DNA of 64,000 bases from Furfurilactobacillus milii (GTDB lineage Bacteria > Bacillota > Bacilli > Lactobacillales > Lactobacillaceae): positions 1 through 64,000 of the forward strand of contig NZ_JAIWJF010000001.1 of assembly GCF_021654115.1 (NCBI RefSeq). Reading direction: 5' to 3'. Position 1 is the stretch's first letter, and every line of letters starts with the position of its first letter. The notes under the pieces were generated by a model. That model had not been told where the DNA came from, ran no database searches, and was given only the letters and a program-made list of their open reading frames with translations. Position numbers and translations under genes: made by a program. Positions 3,087 through 45,956 of the stretch are shown one piece after another.

Positions 3087-5000
3087 CTAATTAATTATGA
3101 GCGGTGATTTGATTTGTTTTACAGAGCTCTGCGTGGCTGTTGTCGCTTTCGGTGCATATCGAATCAGCCGCATCGCGTTAAGAACAACGACTAAAATGCT
3201 GGCTTCGTGAACAAACATGCCACTGGCCATATAAATATAGCCAAAAATTAGACCAATTAGTAAGAAGGCCACTGTACCAATTGCAATAATGATGTTTTCC
3301 CGAGTATTGCGAACCGTTTTTTTGGCCAGTCCGTATGCGTGGATCAATTCGCCAAATGAGGACTGCATCAACACGATATCAGATGTTTCAACCGCTACAT
3401 CTGTACCGCCGCCCATTGCGATGCCAATGTCGGCCGTTGCAATCGACGGGCTGTCGTTAATGCCATCGCCGACAAAAGCCACCGTGTGGTTTTCTTTTTG
3501 CAACTGTTTAACAAACGTCACTTTGTCTTCAGGCAACAGGTTTGCGTGCACCTCATCTATGCCCAATTGACTGCCAACCGCCCGTGCGGTCAGGTCGTTA
3601 TCCCCCGTCAGCATCACGAGCCGTTTGATGCCCATTGTCTTGAGCTGGCGGAGATCTTCCTTGACCCCATCACGAATAACATCTGCAATCCCGATAATGG
3701 CCTCCAGCGTGCCGTCAACCGCCACCAGAACTGTTGAACTCCCTTGATGTTGAACCGTCGCTAATGTTTGTTGCTGATTATTGTTTAAAATGATATTTTC
3801 AGCGTTCATTAAAGTTTGATTGCCAACCGCAACGTGATGACCATCCACCTCAGCCACCATCCCCTGACCCTTAATCGTATTGATTGCGTTGACAGTTATG
3901 CCAGTCGTCGGCAAAGCGTGGTCAGTTACATAATTCACGATTGCACGGCCAAGTGGATGATCCGACTCGTGCTCCATTGCGGCGGCATATGACAAAGCAT
4001 GGTCATCCTCGTACGTTTGAATACTGGCAACTTCGGTTTTGCCCTTCGTCAACGTACCTGTTTTATCAAACACCAGAGTGTCAACCTTGCTAAACGTATC
4101 GACCACTTCGCCGCCTTTGATTAGGACACCATTCTTGGCACCGTTACCGATACCAGCAACGTTTGAAACGGGCGCACCAATCACAAGTGCACCAGGGCAG
4201 CCAAGAACCAGTACTGTAATCGCCAGTTTGAAGTCGCGGAAGAATATCCCCACTAGCAGTGCAAGAATCAACACAGCAGGCGTGTAATACGTGGAAAAGC
4301 GGTCAATAAACTTCTCTACATGGGATTTGGTATCCTGTGCATCTTCAACTAATTCGATAATTTTGGCAAACGTAGTATCGTCGCCGACTTTAGTTGCTTC
4401 TACCTGAATGGTCCCGTTATCGACCATCGTTCCGGAATAGACCAATTCACCTAGATGCTTAGTAACCAATTTTGATTCACCCGTAACACTGGCCTCATTC
4501 AAGTAACCACTGCCGCTGATAATTTTGCCATCCACCGGCACCTGTGCACCTGTTTTGACCAGCACAACGTCACCTTCATCAACAAAATCGACATCCGTTT
4601 CTTTCGTACTACCGTCTTCTTGGAGAACCTGTGCAGTCGTTGGTGCCATTTCAGTGAGTGACTTGATTGACTTTCGCGTTCGCGCTAACGTTTTTTCTTC
4701 CAGGAACGTGCCGAATAAGAATAGAAAGGTCACAATTGCGGATTCATCAAATTCCCGAATGACAAACGCACCGATGACCGCAATGCTCACCAATAATTCA
4801 ATACTGATCGTTTTAACTCTCAGTGCTTCCCAAGCTCTGATGATAATCAGCGTGGCCGCGATGATTGAAGCAAGGATAAAGGCTGATGTGTCTAACCATG
4901 TTTGACCCGTGAAGCGGCCAATAAAACCGAGGATGATCAAACCTGCTGTTATCCCTGTAATTTGATTCGTATGGTGCTGAATCCAGCGTTGAAATTTCAT
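3087..5000 (-). CDS. P1B-type heavy-metal-translocating ATPase
   Basis: Membrane pump of 637 residues that moves a transition-metal ion out of the cytosol at the cost of ATP. In order it shows N-terminal membrane helices with no HMA domain, the actuator motif TGES, the membrane motif GCPGALVIGAPVS, the phosphorylation site DKTGT, the nucleotide-binding HP (ESDHPLG), the hinge GDGINDSP, and two C-terminal helices. The transmembrane metal motif is CPG, not the usual CPC or SPC, so the ion cannot be read from it. The start at 5000 is chosen because AAAAGGGG lies 7 bases upstream; ten extra codons are open before it. HMA chaperone and Dps follow, suggesting copper, zinc/cadmium or iron homeostasis. 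Confidence 0.92.
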   Translation of the reverse strand: MKFQRWIQHHTNQITGITAGLIILGFIGRFTGQTWLDTSAFILASIIAATLIIIRAWEALRVKTISIELLVSIAVIGAFVIREFDESAIVTFLFLFGTFLEEKTLARTRKSIKSLTEMAPTTAQVLQEDGSTKETDVDFVDEGDVVLVKTGAQVPVDGKIISGSGYLNEASVTGESKLVTKHLGELVYSGTMVDNGTIQVEATKVGDDTTFAKIIELVEDAQDTKSHVEKFIDRFSTYYTPAVLILALLVGIFFRDFKLAITVLVLGCPGALVIGAPVSNVAGIGNGAKNGVLIKGGEVVDTFSKVDTLVFDKTGTLTKGKTEVASIQTYEDDHALSYAAAMEHESDHPLGRAIVNYVTDHALPTTGITVNAINTIKGQGMVAEVDGHHVAVGNQTLMNAENIILNNNQQQTLATVQHQGSSTVLVAVDGTLEAIIGIADVIRDGVKEDLRQLKTMGIKRLVMLTGDNDLTARAVGSQLGIDEVHANLLPEDKVTFVKQLQKENHTVAFVGDGINDSPSIATADIGIAMGGGTDVAVETSDIVLMQSSFGELIHAYGLAKKTVRNTRENIIIAIGTVAFLLIGLIFGYIYMASGMFVHEASILVVVLNAMRLIRYAPKATTATQSSVKQIKSPLIIN

Positions 5001-22154: not shown

Positions 22155-23018
22155 TTAGACATCGTATTCCGTTTCTTTAATACCAGCATTCATCATGTCA
22201 TAAGGATTGTGCATCGTGTTATCGTCAAACTCAGCCACCCCGATAACAAGTGACAATTCCATCATTTCTAACGCCTTGGCGCTGTTGGCAGCCTTGGTGA
22301 AGTTATCGCGAATCCGCTGAGCGGCGATGCGTGCCCCAGCTGCGTCTGTGAACATCAACGTTCCCCATGTCGGCGTCACGGTGTCCAAAATGTACCCAAT
22401 GTCATTATCGCGGGTTGATTGCACGATCGTGTCAGACACCAACCGAATCAAGGCATCCAACTGTTCGTCGCCCATCATCCGTTCCAGTTCAGAGTAATAA
22501 CGAATCCGAATAATGATTGTCGTCACCGGAATTTTAAACCGGGTGTGCGTTTCAAGATACACATTGGCATCTTCGATATAGGAAACTGTGGTTCGCAAGT
22601 TTGTTTGCGCATCAAACGCCCCACGTTCAACCATGTCAGTCGTCAATTGCTGATTCTGTTGCTGTAACTGGCGCTGCATCGTGGTCATGCCATAAAAGCT
22701 CAGTGACAACAGTAGCGGCATGAGCAGCCAAAAGACTAGTGCTAAGTTAACCGTATGGTGCTGAACCAGATTGAGGTACACCATCACTAATCCCTGAATA
22801 AACATGAACACCAAGTTTAGCGTCAGGCCGGTCGTCAAACTAAAGAAGTAAGTCGTCATCACCAATGCGACAGTGATGCCTAAATAAAGCGTATTTAGCA
22901 ATAGGTTGCTTGGCGTCGCGCCGAAAAAGATGGCGGTAATTGCAATCAATCCCAGGAAGGCCAACAAACAAGCATCGGCCATCAAACTGGCGTTATTTGT
23001 CTGACGATTGTTTTTCAT
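22155..23018 (-). CDS. degenerate GGDEF membrane protein, probable c-di-GMP receptor
   Basis: A 287-residue protein with four or five N-terminal transmembrane helices, a short glutamine-rich coiled segment and a GGDEF fold. Aligned to active cyclases, the catalytic loop is DTVTP in place of GGDEF, so no cyclase activity is expected. The RxxD inhibitory site is kept as RDND, exactly five residues before that loop. This combination is the mark of GGDEF-derived c-di-GMP receptors such as PelD and Listeria PssE. The GT2 synthase here lacks a PilZ domain, so this protein is the best candidate for switching on polymer synthesis. Its start overlaps the BcsB-like gene by 26 bases, with GGGAGG 8 bases upstream. 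Confidence 0.85.
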   Translation of the reverse strand: MKNNRQTNNASLMADACLLAFLGLIAITAIFFGATPSNLLLNTLYLGITVALVMTTYFFSLTTGLTLNLVFMFIQGLVMVYLNLVQHHTVNLALVFWLLMPLLLSLSFYGMTTMQRQLQQQNQQLTTDMVERGAFDAQTNLRTTVSYIEDANVYLETHTRFKIPVTTIIIRIRYYSELERMMGDEQLDALIRLVSDTIVQSTRDNDIGYILDTVTPTWGTLMFTDAAGARIAAQRIRDNFTKAANSAKALEMMELSLVIGVAEFDDNTMHNPYDMMNAGIKETEYDV

Positions 23019-25143
23019 GAGAACGGCCTCCCTTCCCGATTCGTTGACCGTTCTTGTGGAACATTAGGAACAGCGCATACGCGATGATCACAATCATCAA
23101 GAATGCCAAACCAAGGTAAATAGCAAGTGCCGAGTTTTTGTGAATCGTTTGCGTAACAGTCGGTTTAACTTCAGCATTCTTTTGCTTCTTAAACCGGTAA
23201 TTATAGTGATTATTATCTCGGTCCACCAAAATGGCATCCCCAGTGTATTGTTGAATATTACGCTGGAAGTTAATCTGCGTCGAGGCCATTGCGACGTCAC
23301 GACTGTGCGCCGCAGTGACGACGAGCACGCCTAAGCGCTTATTCCATGGTGACCGCAAGAGTTGATTAGCACCGACGGTTTGACCATAGGCCGACTCAAT
23401 GCTGAGTTTCTCGTTCGAAAGGAAACCAGTAAACTTTTTATTGTATTGGAAATAAAGTTTGTCGTTCAATGACTTGATAAATGAATTATCTGCTGGCGTT
23501 CCAAACGCAATGACGTGGTGTTCGCGAAGAACATTCTTAGGCGGCGTCTTCGTGTAAAACTGAATTGACCCAGTATTGCTTTGGGCAAAATTGCCAATCA
23601 AATTAAAGATGTTCGTCATGGTAGTAAAATCACTCGCACTCAGTGTCTTTGGCCGCACGATGGCTAAATTGTTGAACGACTGATTTTTGATAAACAGACT
23701 TGGATAGTTGCTAAAGAGAATATCTGTTACCGGTTTGGACTTGATGTAGGCCCGCGAGTCTGGTTCCACGAACGCCCATGGTGTCTGCGCATTATCGCTA
23801 TCACTTTGATCCTTCATTTCGAGATCAAACGCTACCCGAATGACAAAGCTGTTACCCAAAGATTGACCGTTTGGCAAGTTAACAGTGAGCTGATCATTGT
23901 CGGCATTGGCCGCAGTCAATTTCTTACTGCCAATCGGTTTGCCATTCACATAAACGGTAGCCAGTGAGCGCGTGAAATCAAGGTTCTTTGCGTATCGGAA
24001 GTGCACACGGATTTTGCTCCCGTCCGCATTCGTCCGGTCCGTCGGTAAATTAACGAAATAAGTACTTTCCTGATGCTTCGGACCCGTGATTTGATCACCC
24101 GTCGACGTTAATTTACGACTGCCTTGATACTGCAGATCAGACGTAAATGTTTGGGTAGCTGCGGAGATATTTTTAGTATCCGCGCTGGTTTCCTTCATCA
24201 ACTCAGCGTTAGCAATAAACCGCGCCGCCTTTTCCAGATCTTTGCCGGTTGCAGCGGTGACCAAGAGTACATGCTTATTTCCGTCATAAATTGTTTTAAG
24301 CACCGCGTGTTTGGCAACATCCTGACGACTCACGGCCGCCTGATATTTCTTTGGCAGATGTTGATACGTTGCCATGACAATTTGATAGTCAGCTTTTTTA
24401 GCCTTGCTCGTATCAAACGTGGTCACAGGAATCTGGTTATTCTCAGTAGTGATTACCCGTGCGTAACCGGCCAGAGCGTACATGCTGGCAGTCAGCTCGT
24501 CATTAGTTGCCTGCTTTGGCACAGAAATAACCGAGTTATGATTCACGATGGTATCCGGTCCGCTGAAATGATCGTAGAACGATTTAATAGCAGTTTCCGG
24601 ATCCTTCAACACATACCGAAAGTTGACGTTGGCACCACTGTATAACGTGAACCAGTTAGCTGGCGTTTGCGCTACTTCCGCCTTGCTCCCGTCAGAATTC
24701 AAAATCTGGCCACTGATCTTAATATTGTTCGTGCCACTGAGCAAACGAGTCGGAATGTCGACACTCTTCGTTTGCAAGCCAGCCTTATTTTCGGGCCTGA
24801 ACGAATAAAATTTAACGCCATTAATCGAGACGGTGATGTCAGATGTATCGCCATTAGTTAACTGGCTAACCTGATAGTTTAAATTCAGTGTTGCCTGTTT
24901 AACGTCCCAGTAATCCATCTTGATAAAGTACGTATTGGCGGTAATTGAATTGCCGGACAACGTTGTGGTGCTATTTTGAAATGGCTGCGTGTACGTCTGT
25001 TCATCAGCGGCCTTCGCCGGTGTTATTGTGATGACCAAACTAACCGCGAGTGCGAATAACAGCCACAGCACCGACAATCCCTTACCGGTACCGCTTTGTC
25101 TTGTACCATTTCGCTTGTTTATGAAAAACCTGCTCTCTAACAT
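22993..25143 (-). CDS. BcsB-like exopolysaccharide synthase subunit
   Basis: Secreted, C-terminally membrane-anchored protein of 716 residues resembling the BcsB subunit of cellulose synthase. It has a signal peptide (cleaved near PAKAADEQ), alternating carbohydrate-binding-like and flavodoxin-like beta-rich regions, and one C-terminal transmembrane helix (LAIYLGLAFLMIVIIAYALF) followed by a basic tail. In Gram-negatives BcsB guides the polymer from the synthase across the periplasm; here it would act on the outer face of the membrane. It overlaps the GT2 gene by 62 bases. The ATG at 25143 has only GGTGGG near it; a GTG some 25 codons later has a better ribosome site but would remove the basic n-region, so the longer form is kept. 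Confidence 0.83.
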   Translation of the reverse strand: MLESRFFINKRNGTRQSGTGKGLSVLWLLFALAVSLVITITPAKAADEQTYTQPFQNSTTTLSGNSITANTYFIKMDYWDVKQATLNLNYQVSQLTNGDTSDITVSINGVKFYSFRPENKAGLQTKSVDIPTRLLSGTNNIKISGQILNSDGSKAEVAQTPANWFTLYSGANVNFRYVLKDPETAIKSFYDHFSGPDTIVNHNSVISVPKQATNDELTASMYALAGYARVITTENNQIPVTTFDTSKAKKADYQIVMATYQHLPKKYQAAVSRQDVAKHAVLKTIYDGNKHVLLVTAATGKDLEKAARFIANAELMKETSADTKNISAATQTFTSDLQYQGSRKLTSTGDQITGPKHQESTYFVNLPTDRTNADGSKIRVHFRYAKNLDFTRSLATVYVNGKPIGSKKLTAANADNDQLTVNLPNGQSLGNSFVIRVAFDLEMKDQSDSDNAQTPWAFVEPDSRAYIKSKPVTDILFSNYPSLFIKNQSFNNLAIVRPKTLSASDFTTMTNIFNLIGNFAQSNTGSIQFYTKTPPKNVLREHHVIAFGTPADNSFIKSLNDKLYFQYNKKFTGFLSNEKLSIESAYGQTVGANQLLRSPWNKRLGVLVVTAAHSRDVAMASTQINFQRNIQQYTGDAILVDRDNNHYNYRFKKQKNAEVKPTVTQTIHKNSALAIYLGLAFLMIVIIAYALFLMFHKNGQRIGKGGRSHEKQSSDK

Positions 25144-26353
25144 AACCCACCATCCCGTATGCGGCTACTGCAAGCCACATTTGACTATATGTGATGTACA
25201 TCAAGATAATTATGAGAACGTTGCTAAAGTTCATTTCGCCCTTTTCCGTTGTGATTGTGATGTACGTACTGGCAACGAAGAGAACAATTGCCAGCAACCA
25301 TAACGAATTGCTGAACCCCTGTAAGTTTGAATGAACTTTACCCGCAACCGAGAGGACAAATACGGTGTCGGATAAGACTAACGACGTCATCAGGAGAAAA
25401 TAAATGGACAAAAAGTACAACAGATCGAAACGAATTGGCCGGCCACGTTTGGTAAATAGCAAATGCGTGTTTTTTAGGATGACGTAGATATTTCCCTTAA
25501 CCCAGCGCGTTCGTTGATGGAACCACACGGATAACGTTTGTGGCTCTTGCTCCCAAGTAACTGCTTTAGGCTGAAACTTAATGTGAAAGCCCTTCATGTA
25601 GATCCGAAAACTGATTTCCGTATCTTCAGCGAGTGCTTTCACATCCCAACCACCGACTTCTTCCAACAGTGATCGACGAATGACGTAATTTGTGCCCGGA
25701 ATCGTACATAAATGAAATAACTGTTGTCGCCCGGCCTGCGCCATCCATTGAAAGGACAGCGTCTCGATGTTAATGAAGCGTGTGAGTAACGTTGCATTAC
25801 GATTTCGCGTCCGAAACTTGCCAATCACTGCCCCCAACGTATCATCAGCCATTAACTCGGCAACTAGAATTCGAAGCGCACCACTTTCTGGCGTGTTATC
25901 CGCATCATAAATGGAAATGACATCGCCTTTGGCAGCGGCAAGACCAATATTCAGGGCGTTTGACTTCCCTTTACCACCATTTGTCTTGTCTGTATTGATC
26001 ACGTGAACCTGGCGATGAGGGTAACGCTTTTGTAAACGACCCAGCAATTCTGCCGAATCATCATCCGAATTGTCGTTAATAATGATGATTTCGTAGCGAT
26101 CGTGTGGATAATCGAAGTTCAATAACGACTCAACCGTCTTGACGATAACGATCCCCTCGTTGTGGGCAGGAACCATCACCGACACAAACGGCACTTTTTT
26201 CGGCAGTTCACGCGCGGGCGTTTTTACCTGGCGTAGATAATTGACATATCCTGCAATGACCAAAATGATATTCACGATTAAAATGGTCCAAATTGCCAAG
26301 ATCGCAATAAAGAGAAAAATGTCGAGAATGTTAATGATGGTCCCTCCTTTCAA
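25082..26353 (-). CDS. processive glycosyltransferase family 2 (EPS synthase)
   Basis: Inner-membrane synthase of about 420 residues in the BcsA/PgaC/hyaluronan synthase class, which polymerises sugar nucleotides and extrudes the chain. Motifs are VMVPAHNEG, IINDNSDD, IYDADN (the two substrate-binding aspartates), LAEDTE (catalytic base) and QRTRW (acceptor site), with one N-terminal and three or four C-terminal transmembrane helices. There is no PilZ domain, so c-di-GMP must be sensed by another subunit. The product (cellulose, PNAG or mixed) cannot be told. The frame opens with TTG immediately before AAAGGAGGG, and no ATG or GTG lies at usable distance; ATT at 26335 is 7 bases after AGGAGG, so a non-standard start is likely. 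Confidence 0.9.
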   Translation of the reverse strand: MKGGTIINILDIFLFIAILAIWTILIVNIILVIAGYVNYLRQVKTPARELPKKVPFVSVMVPAHNEGIVIVKTVESLLNFDYPHDRYEIIIINDNSDDDSAELLGRLQKRYPHRQVHVINTDKTNGGKGKSNALNIGLAAAKGDVISIYDADNTPESGALRILVAELMADDTLGAVIGKFRTRNRNATLLTRFINIETLSFQWMAQAGRQQLFHLCTIPGTNYVIRRSLLEEVGGWDVKALAEDTEISFRIYMKGFHIKFQPKAVTWEQEPQTLSVWFHQRTRWVKGNIYVILKNTHLLFTKRGRPIRFDLLYFLSIYFLLMTSLVLSDTVFVLSVAGKVHSNLQGFSNSLWLLAIVLFVASTYITITTEKGEMNFSNVLIIILMYITYSQMWLAVAAYGMVGYVREQVFHKQAKWYKTKRYR

Positions 26354-26383
26354 GATGCCAAACTGACTGCGCGAAGTTTGCCA

Positions 26384-27973
26384 CTACTTCTTTTTAAACA
26401 TGCGCCAGTAAACTTGACGACCAACAATATAAAATGCGAGTAAGACGATTAACGACACAATCATGAAGAAGAACAGGAAGACACCATCTACGCTAAAGAA
26501 TGTGTTTAGCGCCCCTGTCGGCGTAACTGGTGTTGGCTTAGTCTGCTTTGGCGGATTGTACGTTGGTACCACCGTTAACTGCCCGTTTAAGTAATAATTG
26601 CCATTACGATAGTGTGCCCGCTGGTTGGCGACCGTCGTGGTGCCACTAAACTTGCCAGCGCTTGGATCCAACCAACTAACCTTAGCAGCACTCACGCGTT
26701 TGACTAGCCCCGTCAAGTCCTTTTGACTGTCGGGCATTGTCATGGTAATTGCTGTTGGCGATGAAAATGAGAGGTTTGTTTGAGCCAAATTGGTACCGTT
26801 GTGGACAGTCTCTAATGACTGTTCTTTGAGTCCATAAAATGTCCGTTTGTATACACCGGCAGTGTTATCTGCGTCGGCATTTTTAGTTTCAGAAGGGTTG
26901 CCCGTTAAAATGACATTATTGCTATATGACAACGCTGCTGGCCGATAAACCAAGTCTTGATTCCAGTAATTAGGAACGCTCATCCCAACCGGAAACACCT
27001 GCCGGGCAATAAACCGCCGGATCTGCGTTTGCATCAACTGTGTCAGTTCCGACTGAGTACTGGCCTTGGGATAATATACAACGGGCGTTCGCAGAAAGAT
27101 GACGCCGCCATGGTTTTCAACCCACTGCAGCTCACTCGTAAACCGTTTGTATGCCGGCAAATCGGTATTAACGGAAATACTGGTTGTACTGATGGCAAAC
27201 GGAATCCCGTTATTCTCTAAATCCGTAGCCAACTTATGCAACAAGTCCATGTTCGTAAATGGCGTCACGTCTGTAATCGTCAGTAATGGCGCATAAGTTG
27301 ACGTGTGACCAAAGAAACGGGCAATTAACCGACTGGCAACAACGAAACTCAGGCCATTTGGTGTCAGATAAGGTAGGTACGCGCTGTTTCCATTGATGAC
27401 GCCGTATGGTACTTTTTGGGCATTTTGACTTTGCGGCACTAAGGTCCCAAACGTCGTCACTGTCGCTGGTGTCTGTGCCGTCACGGCCAAAGACTCACTG
27501 AAAGATAATAATTGCCGCGCTGATGATGTGTGGTCGCTTAACCAATATTGCTGATGATAGCGTGGACGCAACTTCAAACCGAGCGATTGTTGCTCATCTG
27601 TAGCCATTGACGGTCCAATGTGGAGTTTTAAACCCGTAAACGCCGCCCGATCATGAGCAAAGTGACTCATTGTCAACTTAGCCTGTGACCAATTCACCAT
27701 CGTGATAACCGCTTTAAAATGCAGTCGTTTGATATCACCAGCATGATACTGATCGATGCGAATCGTATGAACTTCTAGGTTCAACGACGTCAGCAATCGC
27801 TGCACCGCATCAATTTTTGTTTGGTCACTCTTGGCGCGATTTTCGCTATCGTAAGCGAGTAATACACGGGGCGCATGGCTGACTTGGCTGGCAGAAACTG
27901 TCACCGGTACTGACGATAGCAGTCCCAAAAATGTCAGGGTTAGTAGCAAAATGGCACCAAAACGTTTCTTCAT
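26384..27973 (-). CDS. DUF2334-like (polysaccharide-deacetylase-fold) membrane-anchored protein
   Basis: A 529-residue protein with a signal peptide (about 1-28), a large extracellular part and a C-terminal transmembrane helix with basic end. The segment LLTITDVTPFTNMDLLHKLA resembles the first metal-binding motif of DUF2334, a family with the polysaccharide deacetylase fold. The later motif usually carrying two histidines reads GGVIFLRTPVV, so a canonical metal site looks incomplete and a binding or structural role is as likely as deacetylation. It overlaps the preceding reading frame by 4 bases (ATGA type) and belongs to the EPS operon. Confidence 0.7.
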   Translation of the reverse strand: MKKRFGAILLLTLTFLGLLSSVPVTVSASQVSHAPRVLLAYDSENRAKSDQTKIDAVQRLLTSLNLEVHTIRIDQYHAGDIKRLHFKAVITMVNWSQAKLTMSHFAHDRAAFTGLKLHIGPSMATDEQQSLGLKLRPRYHQQYWLSDHTSSARQLLSFSESLAVTAQTPATVTTFGTLVPQSQNAQKVPYGVINGNSAYLPYLTPNGLSFVVASRLIARFFGHTSTYAPLLTITDVTPFTNMDLLHKLATDLENNGIPFAISTTSISVNTDLPAYKRFTSELQWVENHGGVIFLRTPVVYYPKASTQSELTQLMQTQIRRFIARQVFPVGMSVPNYWNQDLVYRPAALSYSNNVILTGNPSETKNADADNTAGVYKRTFYGLKEQSLETVHNGTNLAQTNLSFSSPTAITMTMPDSQKDLTGLVKRVSAAKVSWLDPSAGKFSGTTTVANQRAHYRNGNYYLNGQLTVVPTYNPPKQTKPTPVTPTGALNTFFSVDGVFLFFFMIVSLIVLLAFYIVGRQVYWRMFKKK

Positions 27974-28290
27974 CGCTGCCCACCCCGCATTTCAAATACA
28001 TGCCAGAGGCGGTGATTCAACAAATCAGAGACGAGCAATGCTAGCGACAAATCCGTGCACAACGGCACCATAAACAGATGCTTCGCCAAATCCGCGTCTC
28101 CGTCACCAATCACAGATGCGATAAAGGTCATGAAAATAATGGCCATGTTCGCAATGATGAGTGCCAGTCGAACAACCATTTCCGGATCACCATCACGAAT
28201 ACCGTGATAGGCGCCAAACGCGTACACGCCGATAAAAGCGAAGGCAATTAACACATAAAAAGCGAACGTTCGTGGGAAAAATGCACCCAT
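27970..28290 (-). CDS. C-terminal fragment of the broken WsfD-like membrane transferase
   Basis: An open frame of 106 residues with three transmembrane helices, beginning MGAFFPRTFAFYV and containing GDGDADLAKHLF. It is in the same frame as the 370-residue gene upstream. The codons between them read through as TKAAGQPKYAQTHYFTGFSTI with only the single TAA at 28354-28356 in the way, so this is almost certainly the end of one original protein of about 498 residues. Whether it is translated on its own is unclear; no strong ribosome site precedes its ATG. Confidence 0.75.
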   Translation of the reverse strand: MGAFFPRTFAFYVLIAFAFIGVYAFGAYHGIRDGDPEMVVRLALIIANMAIIFMTFIASVIGDGDADLAKHLFMVPLCTDLSLALLVSDLLNHRLWHVFEMRGGQR

Positions 28291-28353
28291 GATGGTGGAA
28301 AATCCCGTAAAATAATGTGTTTGCGCATATTTTGGCTGACCGGCCGCCTTGGT

Positions 28354-29466
28354 TTAATCACTAACTGCCTTAACCTGCGTCAACTGGCCATCCTTAGCAG
28401 CCAAATTCAGCAATGCACCAAATTCTGACGGATGGGTCAGTTCATACTTCAAAATCCACATGAAGCTGAACTTATCCGTAAAGTGCTTTTGCATGTACTT
28501 GCCATTAACGTCAATCGGCGAATAACGATCAAAGTACGTTTGCCCTCGGGTCAACGCAAACTGACTGTCAATGCCACCCTGCATCAGTGCTTTTTCAGGA
28601 TCCTTGGCCTTTAACAACACACCACGAGTCATCGATTGATATTCGTTAATGTTATTAAACGTCTTTGTGATCAGTGCATAGGTTGCTACCCCAGACGCTA
28701 AAATCAGCACAGTGCCTAAAATGACGTACAATTTCTCGGCACGTTTATGAAACACAAACAACAAACTTAGCATCGTCAGTGCAAAGCCTAGTGCCAGCGG
28801 TGCATTTTGCTGTTTGTTTGTAATCAGGACCACCGTGCTGATAAAAAAGAGCAAGACCATCGGCCAGCGTCGTTTGAAACGGTGACGTGCCAATAACAGA
28901 ATCGAAGAAAACGAATAGAGCATGGCAACAAACATTCCTGGTTCTGCGAAGAAAGAATTAAAGTACAGTGTGTACGACGAATCGGCAAAAACAAACACGA
29001 CCATTAACGCAATAATGTAGTTCCGCCACCGTTTCGAAGGAAATGTTAACGCCTCGGTCAAAAGGTAGATGCCGCCTAGAAACAGCACGTAATAAATCAG
29101 TCCCATAAACCGAATGTCAAACACTTTGGTACTATAGGCCAACATGTTTAAGCCAATCGCCGCCTTGATAAATAACGGCTGTGACGAAAATAGCGCCGCT
29201 GATGATTCGTTAAAATATTGCATAATGCCATATTTTTGAACCATGTATGTAAAAAAGTAATATGGTTTACCAGTTAATCGATAGAGACCGTTGACGTAGA
29301 TGGCACGATCAAAATCGCCATTGTTAGCGTAGCCGTTAACCGGTGGAATGAATAACAGGTACGCCACGATCAGCGCTGACAAGATTACCGCCAACGCCGC
29401 TGGTGAAACATGCGACCGAAACCACAACAAGCTCCGTGTCAGGCCATGCCGCAAATGCGCGCCCAT
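28354..29466 (-). CDS. WsfD-like membrane glycan transferase, N-terminal part, interrupted by in-frame stop
   Basis: A 370-residue multi-helix membrane protein resembling GT-C-type hexose transferases of the WsfD family. Helix one is followed by an extracytoplasmic acidic motif, NGDFDR, at about residue 50, and about nine more helices follow. The product ends at KAVSD followed by TAA, while the same frame continues at once into 126 more residues. A change of one base (for example TAT or TAC to TAA) would explain it. AAAGGAG lies 7 bases before the ATG. In the operon it stands between the GH8 gene and the DUF2334 gene. If the stop is real, the polymer locus may be impaired or modified. Confidence 0.78.
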   Translation of the reverse strand: MGAHLRHGLTRSLLWFRSHVSPAALAVILSALIVAYLLFIPPVNGYANNGDFDRAIYVNGLYRLTGKPYYFFTYMVQKYGIMQYFNESSAALFSSQPLFIKAAIGLNMLAYSTKVFDIRFMGLIYYVLFLGGIYLLTEALTFPSKRWRNYIIALMVVFVFADSSYTLYFNSFFAEPGMFVAMLYSFSSILLLARHRFKRRWPMVLLFFISTVVLITNKQQNAPLALGFALTMLSLLFVFHKRAEKLYVILGTVLILASGVATYALITKTFNNINEYQSMTRGVLLKAKDPEKALMQGGIDSQFALTRGQTYFDRYSPIDVNGKYMQKHFTDKFSFMWILKYELTHPSEFGALLNLAAKDGQLTQVKAVSD

Positions 29467-29498
29467 TCAATCACTCCTTTCTCTCAACCACCACATTA

Positions 29499-30590
29499 CT
29501 AGTGGGTGACACCATCCATCGCCACCAGTGCCGTTAAATTATTAAATGAATATGCCGTATTGGTACTTTCATCCCCGAATCCACCAGCCAGTGGTGATGC
29601 AGCATTTTTGACCTGCATCGCCAACAATTGTTGCTGACCGGCGGCTTGAAGTGCCTTTTGACCGCTTGCGTTACCAATCATCATGACTAATGCGTAATTG
29701 GCAGCAGACTGATCAGTTGTTAACGCGTGACCATGCTGGTCATACTGGTTAACCAGCGTCTTATGCTTTGTTTGCTGTAACAGCCACCGTTCACTAGATG
29801 GTTTCAAACGACCAATTTGAGCGACGTGCAGTAACGTCACTAAGCCTTCTGTGGTGTTAATATTACCAGTCGTATATTTGCGTGTGTGATAATTGTACCT
29901 TCGTGCGTAAAATGGCATCTTGCGGCTAATAAAACCGCCTTGAACCAAACGCAACTGCTTTTGATAGGTTTTAGTGTTGCCTTCTAACTGACGCAACGTC
30001 AAAAAATCAAAGTATGACAGCGTACCGGTTTGGGGGCGCTTTTTAGACTGCGGATCGTAAAAGTCTGCAACATGTCCTTGTTTCAAGGCCTGTTTTTGCT
30101 GATGATGCCACAGTGACTTAATTTCACGCTGATAATGCTTCGTTTTAAAGGTTTTATCATACTGGATCAAGGCACCGATAATTCGCAGATCATCAAGCGT
30201 TGCGTTCACATTTGAGCGTTTTTTTGTCCGTGGATTATACCGATAGCTAAACTGGTTATGCGCGTAAAAGGTCGTTTTCGTTTGCTGATAAAACTTAGTA
30301 AATGCTTCTCGCTGATTCGTGAGCGCAAGGTGTTGCAGATACAAGCCGGCAGATTCACTCAATAGTTCATTGCCACTAGCAGTGTCGCCACCTGCACTAA
30401 CCTGATCATTCACATTGGTTTTAACACCCTGCTTGGTAACCAGCTTGATTGTCACAAACTTGGTCAGTGCTTGATGGGCAGATTCCAGCGATTGTGCATC
30501 GGTATCCGCTTGCACGTTTAGCAGTGGGCCACTAACCATCAGTAAAACAAATAAACTAACAAGGATTAGATACCGTCGCCATTGAGTCAT
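29499..30590 (-). CDS. secreted GH8-like glycoside hydrolase (PssZ/BcsZ type)
   Basis: A 363-residue secreted or membrane-tethered protein (signal segment about 1-28). The (alpha/alpha)6 barrel of glycoside hydrolase family 8 is suggested by LLSESAGLYLQHLAL, where the family has its catalytic glutamate (TSEGxGYG), and by NATLDDLRIIGAL, where it has the second acidic residue. Enzymes of this family in EPS operons trim or release the polymer, as BcsZ does for cellulose and PssZ for Listeria EPS. Its ATG overlaps the nox stop codon as ATGA, so its translation is coupled to NADH oxidase. Confidence 0.8.
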   Translation of the reverse strand: MTQWRRYLILVSLFVLLMVSGPLLNVQADTDAQSLESAHQALTKFVTIKLVTKQGVKTNVNDQVSAGGDTASGNELLSESAGLYLQHLALTNQREAFTKFYQQTKTTFYAHNQFSYRYNPRTKKRSNVNATLDDLRIIGALIQYDKTFKTKHYQREIKSLWHHQQKQALKQGHVADFYDPQSKKRPQTGTLSYFDFLTLRQLEGNTKTYQKQLRLVQGGFISRKMPFYARRYNYHTRKYTTGNINTTEGLVTLLHVAQIGRLKPSSERWLLQQTKHKTLVNQYDQHGHALTTDQSAANYALVMMIGNASGQKALQAAGQQQLLAMQVKNAASPLAGGFGDESTNTAYSFNNLTALVAMDGVTH

Positions 30591-31981
30591 ATTTCTGATG
30601 CCGCCTGATCACTATTCTTTGGTTCTTTCCGGCCACGTTGTTGTTCCTGCGCCACGGCAATTTGAGCCACTTGATTCAAATAATTGAACGGTTCATCGTA
30701 ATTTGGCTGAAATAACATGTCAACAAATGCTAAATCATCAATCGTATTCTTATTCTGAATGCAAACAGACAACGTGTTCGCGGACTGAGCAACTTCATGT
30801 TCGCACAACAACTGACCACCCAGAATTCGCCGTGAATCCCGATCATAAACTAACGCAATGGTCAGTTTGGCCGTTGATGGCATGTAAGCGGGACGGTAGT
30901 TGCCTTCATACGTTGCTGTTGCTGCGTCAATTCCCTGCTTTTGTGCGTGAGCGAGCGTGCTCCCCGTCGTTGCCAAAGTACTGCCAAAGATTTCCATCGC
31001 CGACGTCGACTGGGTGCCCATGTATTTCAAAGTTGGCGTCAGCAAGTTCAGGCCAACCAACGTGCCTTGGCGAACAGCCGTGGACGCCAAGGGTGCATAA
31101 AGATTTTCGTTTGTCGGGTTAAAGTGAACCGCACAGGCATCCCCGGCTGCAAAGATATGGGGATCGGAGCTCTGCATGTAATCGTCAGTTAAGATGGCGC
31201 CATTTGGTAACATGTCAACCTGACCACTCAGCAATCCTGTATTAGGCACAAACCCGGTCGCCACAATTGCTAAATCAGTGGGATAATGACCGCTTTCCGT
31301 TTCCACAAGAATACCGTCACCCGCTGGGTCTGCGCTAAAGCCGGTCACACGTTCATGCAGATGCACGTCGACATCATGGTCAACCAGCCGTTGCGTAATA
31401 TTTTCAGATAACATTTGGTCGACAGAGTGAACCAAAATTTGTTTATGATTCTGAAACAGACTAACCACATGTTCTGTGCTAGCATAGCTTTCCGCCAACT
31501 CCACACCAACGTAACCTGCGCCAACAATGGTAATGTGCTTATTTTCCTCAGCCGTTTTATAAATCTGTTTGGCCTGATCGTAATCTTTACACAACAACAC
31601 GCGGCGTGAGTCAATTCCCTTCAGAGGCGGAACAATCACTGTTGATCCAGTCGTCATCACTAGACGATCATAATGAACCGTTTCAACATCCTTATTGATA
31701 AGATCTTCGACGACCACCGTTTGTCGTTTAGCATCAATCTTTAACACATCATGCTTTACATGAACGTGTGCACCTAGTTTACGCAGAGCCTCAGGGCTTG
31801 AATAAAACATGTCCTCCAACCGTTGCACACGGCCGTCCAAATATAATGAAATCCCACATGACAGGAAAGAAATATTGTCATGCCGTTCATAAACCTCAAC
31901 GTCTAAATCCGGATTAGTCACTAACATCTGACTAATCGCAGCGGTACCTGCATGTGTACAACCAACAACAATAACTTTCAT
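30587..31981 (-). CDS. nox: NADH oxidase (Nox-2 type, FAD-dependent)
   Basis: Flavoprotein of 464 residues in the pyridine nucleotide-disulfide reductase class I fold that oxidises NADH with oxygen, normally to water. The FAD-binding N-terminus is VIVVGCTHAG, the redox cysteine is in FLSCGI (residue about 42, the cysteine sulfenic acid position), the NADH site is ITIVGAGYVGVELAE and the second FAD motif is IFAAGDAC. It ends with a charged tail, EQQRGRKEPKN. It is the first gene of the EPS operon, coupled by ATGA overlap to the GH8 gene, which ties oxygen or NADH metabolism to polymer production. GGGGATG lies 7 bases before the ATG. Confidence 0.93.
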   Translation of the reverse strand: MKVIVVGCTHAGTAAISQMLVTNPDLDVEVYERHDNISFLSCGISLYLDGRVQRLEDMFYSSPEALRKLGAHVHVKHDVLKIDAKRQTVVVEDLINKDVETVHYDRLVMTTGSTVIVPPLKGIDSRRVLLCKDYDQAKQIYKTAEENKHITIVGAGYVGVELAESYASTEHVVSLFQNHKQILVHSVDQMLSENITQRLVDHDVDVHLHERVTGFSADPAGDGILVETESGHYPTDLAIVATGFVPNTGLLSGQVDMLPNGAILTDDYMQSSDPHIFAAGDACAVHFNPTNENLYAPLASTAVRQGTLVGLNLLTPTLKYMGTQSTSAMEIFGSTLATTGSTLAHAQKQGIDAATATYEGNYRPAYMPSTAKLTIALVYDRDSRRILGGQLLCEHEVAQSANTLSVCIQNKNTIDDLAFVDMLFQPNYDEPFNYLNQVAQIAVAQEQQRGRKEPKNSDQAASEI

Positions 31982-32249: not shown

Positions 32250-32495
32250 TATGTAGGTCTTACAGGTCGCCTTCGGTTGTCAACACGGAAACACCGGCGT
32301 GGGAGCGGTTCAAGCCTCCACAACCCAGAGTCTTTCACCTCGTCGCCAAGCCTCAAAACCCGAGTCTTCGCGACCGTCCCCGTGCTGTATATCAGGAAAA
32401 CCACCTGATTACAGCACCCTTCACGCCTTAGTTTCCTTGTTGACGCCCTTCGGCTTACATTACAGACTCAGGCTACACCTACCGCTAGTTAGAAA
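32250..32495 (-). ncRNA. structured RNA A (minus strand), homologous in fold to RNA B
   Basis: On the minus strand a multi-branched fold is visible. The closing stem is GTCAACAAGGAAAC (32431-32444) with GTTTCCGTGTTGAC (32279-32292), one mismatch. Hairpin 1 is GTGCTGTA/TACAGCAC (32382-32417). Linker GGGGACG follows, then hairpin 2 GTCGC/GCGAC (32342-32374), the block GAGGTGAAAGACTC (32328-32341) and hairpin 3 GGAG/CTCC. A GCC-GAAG-GGC hairpin lies 5' of the closing stem and CTGTAAG 3' of it. Order and linkers match RNA B on the other strand. It could be the leader of nox and the EPS operon or a separate RNA. Confidence 0.6.
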
Positions 32496-32500
32496 CGGGT

Positions 32501-32529
32501 TTGTTAAAAGGTAACAGCTTATTTATACG
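32501..32529 (+). promoter_or_regulatory. promoter of RNA B and the EAL gene
   Basis: Plus strand: -35 TTGTTA (32501-32506), 17-base spacer, -10 TATACG (32524-32529). The predicted start, near 32536, falls at the 5' end of RNA B. A minus-strand promoter for RNA A must overlap this region; TTACCG-N17-CTTTTA is a weak candidate. Confidence 0.5.
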
Positions 32530-32535
32530 GTAATA

Positions 32536-32750
32536 TGAGTGGAGGCGACCAGAGACAGAGTTCCGTGTCGACAGCACTTAATGGAGCGGGTTTGGCCATT
32601 TAGTGCTGTGGGACGAGTTCTGAGACGAACTTTGGCTCAGAATCGAGGTGGAAGACTCCGGTTTTCAGGAGGCTGAGACAGGTCCTCATGGAACGGCGTC
32701 TCTGGTCGACGCAACGACAGTGATGTCACAAACAAGAACTGTAAGTTCGA
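32536..32750 (+). ncRNA. structured RNA B (plus strand), probable leader of the EAL phosphodiesterase gene
   Basis: Closing stem CGACCAGAGAC (32546-32556) with GTCTCTGGTCG (32698-32708), continued by GTTCC/GGAAC. Hairpin 1 is CAGCACTTAATGG/CCATTTAGTGCTG (32572-32608), linker GGGACG, hairpin 2 TTCTGAG/CTCAGAA (32615-32644), block GAGGTGGAAGACTC (32645-32658), hairpin 3 GAGG/CCTC (32669-32687). After the closing stem come GACA-GTGA-TGTC and GAAC-TGTAA-GTTC hairpins. The EAL start codon is 23 bases further on. The closing stem shares no sequence with that of RNA A yet occupies the same place, which supports a selected fold. Not a c-di-GMP-I or -II riboswitch as I know them. Confidence 0.65.
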
Positions 32751-43834: not shown

Positions 43835-45926
<2,092 letters not shown>

Positions 45927-45956
45927 TGTTCGTATGCTAATTAACTTGTGGTTCAT

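Follow-up and report, generated by a model that had tools for sequence, protein, structure and literature searches.

The window (the whole 64,000-nucleotide stretch of Furfurilactobacillus milii DNA analyzed here) carries on its minus strand an EPS cluster (22993-31981) whose products include a BcsB-like protein (PF03170) and a glycosyltransferase of family 2; the cluster resembles a cellulose-synthase-like, c-di-GMP-linked locus and lies opposite a gene for an EAL protein (PF00563; 32773-33462). A single intergenic region in between holds two divergent structured RNAs of one common fold, here called type A and type B (Table 1). Type A points at the oxidoreductase-EPS cluster, and type B ends 59 bp ahead of the EAL gene. 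Both have a folding z-score of -4.2, and none of 200 shuffles was equally stable in either case. Coordinates, folding scores, family covariation, and Rfam scans together uphold the preliminary description of this DNA, which had proposed two homologous, selected, divergent structured RNAs; these have no family in Rfam. The order of parts that it gave (i.e., closing stem, hairpin 1 with GTGCTG/CAGCAC arms, GGGACG, hairpin 2, GAGGTGRAAGACTC, hairpin 3, and closing stem) also stands, except that CTGTAAG, which it had counted as part of the element, must be removed. Conservation in the family ends before this motif, and its occurrence beside both window copies is thus a coincidence.

The Rfam search that had been proposed as a check yielded no match to any known family in the region of the pair, where hits with E values up to 10 were chance matches far below threshold. 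Among all Rfam 15 covariance models, only a purine riboswitch elsewhere in the window exceeded its gathering threshold (RF00167, 66.3 bits, 45845-45942, minus strand), and it is unrelated to the RNA pair.

Table 1. Features of the divergent RNA pair, in window coordinates
Feature	Position	Strand	Basis
Type A structured RNA, whole (193 nt)	32264..32456	-	Model R1, 164.9 bits, model positions 1-196; family covariation
A closing helix P1, 5' strand	32431..32444	-	Counted in type A structure
A hairpin 1 (P3), GTGCTGTAATCAGG...CCTGATATACAGCAC	32382..32417	-	Window sequence, folding, type A structure count
A hairpin 2 (P5), with GAC/GGC A.G mismatch motif	32344..32371	-	Window sequence, type A structure count
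A linker GAGGTGA, hairpin 2 to hairpin 3	32335..32341	-	
A hairpin 3 (P6), A.G mismatch motif as in A hairpin 2	32312..32334	-	Window sequence, type A structure count
A closing helix P1, 3' strand	32281..32294	-	Counted in type A structure
Spacer separating the A and B 5' ends (80 nt)	32457..32536	.	Unconserved among copies and orthologues; no sigma-70-like promoter found
Type B structured RNA, whole (183 nt)	32537..32719	+	Model R2, 195.1 bits, model positions 1-184; family covariation
B closing helix P1, 5' strand	32547..32555	+	Counted in type B structure
B hairpin 1 (P3), CAGCACTTAATGG...CCATTTAGTGCTG	32572..32608	+	Window sequence, folding, type B structure count
B hairpin 2 (P5)	32618..32642	+	Window sequence, type B structure count
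B linker GAGGTGGA	32645..32652	+	
B hairpin 3 (P6)	32654..32674	+	Window sequence, type B structure count
B closing helix P1, 3' strand	32699..32707	+	Counted in type B structure

Fold and covariation

The fold comprises two stacked three-way junctions with six helices in a unit of approximately 180 to 200 nt. The closing helix P1 (14 bp in A) leads into P2, which forms a three-way junction with hairpin P3 and with P4; the latter (GGACGG/CCGGUCC) closes the second three-way junction, from which hairpins P5 and P6 emerge with the linker GCGAGGUGA between them. Both P5 and P6 contain an AGAC/GGCU motif with a conserved A.G mismatch. The two ends of the molecule are joined by an outer AGCY/RGC helix beside tandem purines, for which the support is modest because the helix hardly varies. 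A Shine-Dalgarno-like role for the linker GAGGTGA was considered and rejected, since this linker is kept neither in type B nor in other genera.

Compensatory change, which had been claimed from the observation that the paired parts of the two window copies differ and yet still pair while the linkers stay the same, was proved by families of 39 type A and 28 type B copies. In type A, 94.4% of the cells are paired, compared with 84.0% in shuffled controls and 28 to 38% when the partners are slid, and two-sided changes occur at 37 of 56 pairs; in type B, 95.5% of the cells are paired, with two-sided changes at 31 of 47 pairs. A multi-genus alignment, which was fitted to the model and hence favors it, shows double changes at 51 of 55 pairs. 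The sense fold is more stable than the antisense fold by about 13 kcal/mol (38 of the 39 A copies and all 28 B copies). Family cells are likewise strand asymmetric (135 GU versus 57 AC), and recent changes in B show a strong asymmetry (41 WC-GU versus 7 WC-AC). The corresponding asymmetry in A is weak, with almost no GU preference (47 versus 37), and it is because of this difference that A may act differently from B.

Copy number and layout in the genome

Models built from the 39 type A copies (R1) and the 28 type B copies (R2) identified 139 copies (77 A and 62 B) at 96 loci in the 2.65-Mb genome to which the window belongs. A genome-wide count of the block GAGGTGRAAGACTC gave 21 exact occurrences and another 21 with one mismatch, compared with 3 for a reversed control. 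The copies form 43 pairs (38 A/B and 5 A/A), all of them divergent with 5' ends 53 to 221 nt apart, and 53 single copies (29 A and 24 B). Among the 139 copies there are no tandem or convergent pairs, and none overlaps a predicted gene; all of the loci are intergenic.

Vertical inheritance and selection

When Furfurilactobacillus species are compared, most loci have orthologous counterparts and are inherited vertically, and losses by deletion also occur (e.g., a deletion across a CAG microhomology that took away one B copy except for its 3' tail). In 65 orthologous comparisons, which share a tree and so are not fully independent, include few lone copies, and count only pairs intact in the reference, divergence was 9.0% in the flanks, 8.2% at unpaired RNA positions, and 2.8% at paired positions; double changes were compensatory in 17 cases and broken in 3, with 2.5 doubles expected by chance. 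An unconditioned recount for members of pairs gave rates for A and B, respectively, of 4.9% and 2.8% at paired positions, 9.1% and 6.2% at unpaired positions, and 11.2% and 12.9% in the near flanks, the paired rate being lower than the near-flank rate in 41 of 43 elements. Paired bases thus evolve about two to four times more slowly than the flanks. The fold is maintained by selection at individual inherited loci, a pattern that would not be expected of decaying transposon relics.

Distribution among other bacteria

Among Lactobacillaceae, matches were found in 68 of 301 genomes and in 11 of 40 genera; the named relatives are Furfurilactobacillus rossiae and F. milii. Copies in other genomes were counted with a multi-genus model (R3), which gave 128, 141, and 142 copies in three further Furfurilactobacillus genomes and 28 in a fourth. 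One genome of the same genus (G024, genus g1) has 0 copies, compared with 128 to 142 in sister species, and represents a natural control in the search for a partner or enzyme. Copies were also counted in genera g16 (133 and at least 150 copies), g38 (128), and g4 (33, 141, and at least 150), and in one genome each of g12 (26) and g21 (8). In a sample of 399 genomes of the class Bacilli, no genome other than that of the window matched, which also attests to the specificity of the model. Weak but genuine relatives, each with few copies, are present in two other families of the same order, one of which is probably Aerococcaceae, judging from the match of its RNA to Aerococcus tenax.

The elements in other genera are themselves without a match in Rfam, and a match on the valS side that had been guessed to be a T-box was not supported as such by Rfam. 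With regard to possible ancient fixed positions across genera, a few gene neighbors are shared with the same end and orientation, and others differ. The sole clear tandem array seen consists of three copies of approximately 143 nt with a period of 168 bp (L206:2748-3226, minus strand) and adjoins a plus-strand copy at 3324-3482. Another locus departs from simple pairs in the order A-, A-, B+ (i.e., two same-strand copies and one opposite copy; L198:4921-5643, genus g16).

Transposable vehicles

Outside Furfurilactobacillus, the RNA family has used transposable vehicles. In an Aerococcaceae-like genome (G386; L188 and L228-L235), eight near-identical 1,781-bp ISL3-family elements carry the RNA between the transposase gene (PF01610) and the right end. 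One of these ISL3 copies adjoins a THF riboswitch (RF01831, 71.3 bits; L228:3019-3113, minus strand). A genome of genus g12 (G049; L242-L247, L201, and L202) contains several copies of a unit of about 315 bp that has imperfect inverted repeats at its termini (GTTAGTGTAAAATTTCTCTCGG / GTAAGTGTCAACTTTTTCTCGG); one copy of the unit (L245) is flanked by a 9-bp repeat, AGCAAAAAG. The RNA enclosed in this unit is a shortened form, seemingly without hairpin 3. Finally, a full type A copy (L036/L037:6001-6199, 166.7 bits with R3), located between genes encoding a carboxymuconolactone decarboxylase and a MerR protein, is borne on brewery plasmids of Pediococcus damnosus and Loigolactobacillus backii. 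Dissemination on plasmids or in phages was rejected as an explanation: this segment is the single plasmid-borne case, seven other-genus copies had no plasmid matches, and no phage matched.

The ISL3-family copies and the g12 unit suggest that the RNA could be transposon cargo throughout, that is, carried within insertion sequences or MITEs (ISL3 and IS256-type) that moved by classical DNA transposition and whose ends have decayed in Furfurilactobacillus. Family conservation drops abruptly at both ends of the RNA, however, and in g16 the sequence common to paralogues of 85 to 90% identity coincides with the RNA to within a few bases, with hardly any of the spacer or flanks included. In both Furfurilactobacillus and g16, even 90%-identical paralogues have only the RNA in common, with no larger unit; within Furfurilactobacillus no terminal repeat outside the RNA ends, no outer motif, and no target duplication were found. 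Moreover, decay would not leave paired bases more conserved than the flanks to the extent described above. We therefore consider it unlikely that the copies in Furfurilactobacillus are the remains of such cargo.

Spacers and promoters

The compact fold, the paired ends, and the spacing of the divergent 5' ends would also suit a multicopy family of trans-acting sRNAs, each pair being driven by a bidirectional promoter within its spacer, and a weak -10-like CTATAT does precede A. Such sRNAs would be expected to have their own promoters and terminators; neither a promoter signal nor a terminator was found for the window pair, and no conserved spacer, promoter, or terminator was found in the family. 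The spacer evolves as unconstrained DNA and is not conserved between orthologues. Promoter scores for B equal those of shuffles and those for A are only marginally higher, unlike those of gene starts, which gave a clear signal. In addition, the loops are not variable guides. With spacers unconstrained and promoter scores near those of shuffles, A and B are probably not independent sRNA genes, and a trans-acting sRNA family appears quite unlikely.

Orientation relative to replication

Relative to positive GC skew, 62 of 77 type A copies (81%; binomial P = 6e-8) are oriented in the opposite direction and 50 of 62 type B copies (81%; binomial P = 1e-6) in the same direction. On contig C21, coding direction is mixed and the skew is not, and A still tracks the skew; orientation thus correlates better with replication than with the direction of genes. 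The pair in the window does not follow this bias.

This orientation against the fork would be explained if the fold worked as single-stranded DNA at replication forks, in the manner of IS200/IS605 ends, and the exact ends and weak GU/AC asymmetry of A are in line with such a DNA element. In a pair, however, A and B prefer to fold from opposite DNA strands, so that no single exposed strand holds both preferred folds. Furthermore, the strand asymmetry of B is RNA-like, and the genome lacks a Y1 transposase. A role at the level of DNA is therefore very unlikely.

Gene neighborhoods

The flanking genes of the loci are unrelated and range over housekeeping and transport functions (e.g., gltX/cysS, pgk/tpiA, and groEL, as named from their protein sequences), and the gene 3' of A is more often convergent than codirectional. 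Riboswitches and other cis-acting leaders would be expected to occupy a consistent 5' untranslated position at functionally related genes, and no such consistency was found here. A homologue of the EAL protein in another genus (L207:2643-3520, genome G075) has a family copy 46 bp past its 3' end, in antisense orientation.

The preliminary description had read the window RNAs as a dedicated, riboswitch-like pair sensing a ligand and setting both arms of a c-di-GMP circuit, since B precedes the EAL gene and A faces the oxidoreductase-EPS cluster, but this setting is one instance among 96 loci at unrelated genes with inconsistent leader positions, the copy near the other EAL gene lies at its 3' end in antisense, and no Rfam riboswitch matches, leaving the proposal with a negligible probability. 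As a caution for similar studies, an RNA structure noticed beside a particular gene may be just one copy among a hundred.

Interpretation

These RNAs constitute an undescribed, dispersed family of structured RNA repeats with selected folds, a paired arrangement, and a replication-oriented layout. The recurring unit is the RNA alone, with exact ends; spacers and flanks are private to each locus, and the copies are now mostly inherited in place.

The explanation that we tentatively favor is that of a dispersed RNA repeat that spread in the past in a REPIN-like manner and whose folds are now kept by the host as cis-acting RNA. The ancestral element would have spread as a nonautonomous repeat of the REP/BIME/REPIN type, usually leaving inverted pairs, and a trans-acting enzyme reading the folded single strand would have copied or homogenized it. 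Spreading would have nearly halted in Furfurilactobacillus, and the copies would be retained because the folded RNA acts in cis, inside longer transcripts, without a promoter of its own. As a first guess, the duplicated hairpins with the A.G mismatch (P5 and P6) may serve to bind a protein.

Several observations stand against this REPIN-like account. No mobilizing enzyme was found: the REP transposase family Y1_Tnp (PF01797) has 0 matches in the window's own genome despite its 139 copies and showed no clear correlation over 16 genomes, and the reverse transcriptase family RVT_1 (PF00078) has 0 matches in this genome and in four others (G061, G092, G118, and G142). The lack of outer terminal repeats and target duplications in Furfurilactobacillus and the weak strand asymmetry of A also count against it.

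A broader possibility, which we regard as doubtful, is a genome-wide RNA system of approximately 100 vertically kept, folded loci per genome, mostly divergent pairs and replication oriented, with selection acting on the fold of each, in which a formerly selfish repeat would have been adopted by its hosts as a distributed RNP or as an element that organizes transcripts. If true, such a system would be of a kind not described in bacteria. The family may represent a bacterial case of a host-adopted RNA repeat, and its wide distribution among lactobacilli of food and the gut, which can readily be cultured and edited, makes transcription, protein partners, and mobility directly testable.

Comparison with known systems

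REP units are hairpins of 20 to 40 nt. Like REP/BIME/REPIN sequences, the present family has many intergenic copies, folds as a single strand, prefers gene 3' ends over divergent regions, and forms inverted pairs around a spacer in addition to singles, as seen in the 43 divergent pairs and 53 single copies. It differs in that its unit is approximately 190 nt with two three-way junctions rather than a short palindrome, in its locus-private spacers, in its RNA-like covariation and strand preference, and in the absence from its own genome of a Y1_Tnp gene of the kind represented by RAYT (TnpA-REP).

The HEARO/OMEGA RNAs of IscB or TnpB are likewise structured, high-copy-number RNAs with exact ends, and HEARO is included in Rfam. 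The present family has no Rfam match and forms inverted A/B pairs, and the loci read showed no nuclease gene of the IscB/TnpB type. GEMM and other c-di-GMP riboswitches are similar in being structured RNAs near a c-di-GMP gene; they have another fold, whereas the present RNAs have no Rfam match and occupy about 100 loci beside unrelated genes.

The "mobile/repeat sequence candidates" (MRSC) of an intergenic-region pipeline are described as multicopy, structured, covarying motifs with inconsistent gene orientation, sometimes located beside a transposase (PMC11109978). Our family shares with them the covarying structured motif, several copies per genome, and inconsistent orientation to neighboring genes, and its association with a transposase was observed only in the Aerococcaceae-like genome. 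The example described there, MRSC-65-2, consists of a single long stem and occurs in diverse phyla (PMC11109978). In contrast to this described example, the RNA reported here is built around two junctions, occurs in fixed divergent pairs, and is almost restricted to Lactobacillaceae. No report of the repeat was found in a literature search whose scope excluded subscription-journal papers, preprints, and supplements, and we found no described counterpart of a two-junction RNA with >100 copies per genome, fixed divergent pairs, a selected fold, and replication orientation. Since each known kind tested fails on a defining feature, the family appears to represent a new kind of element, the layout of which is nevertheless analogous to that of BIME/REPIN sequences.
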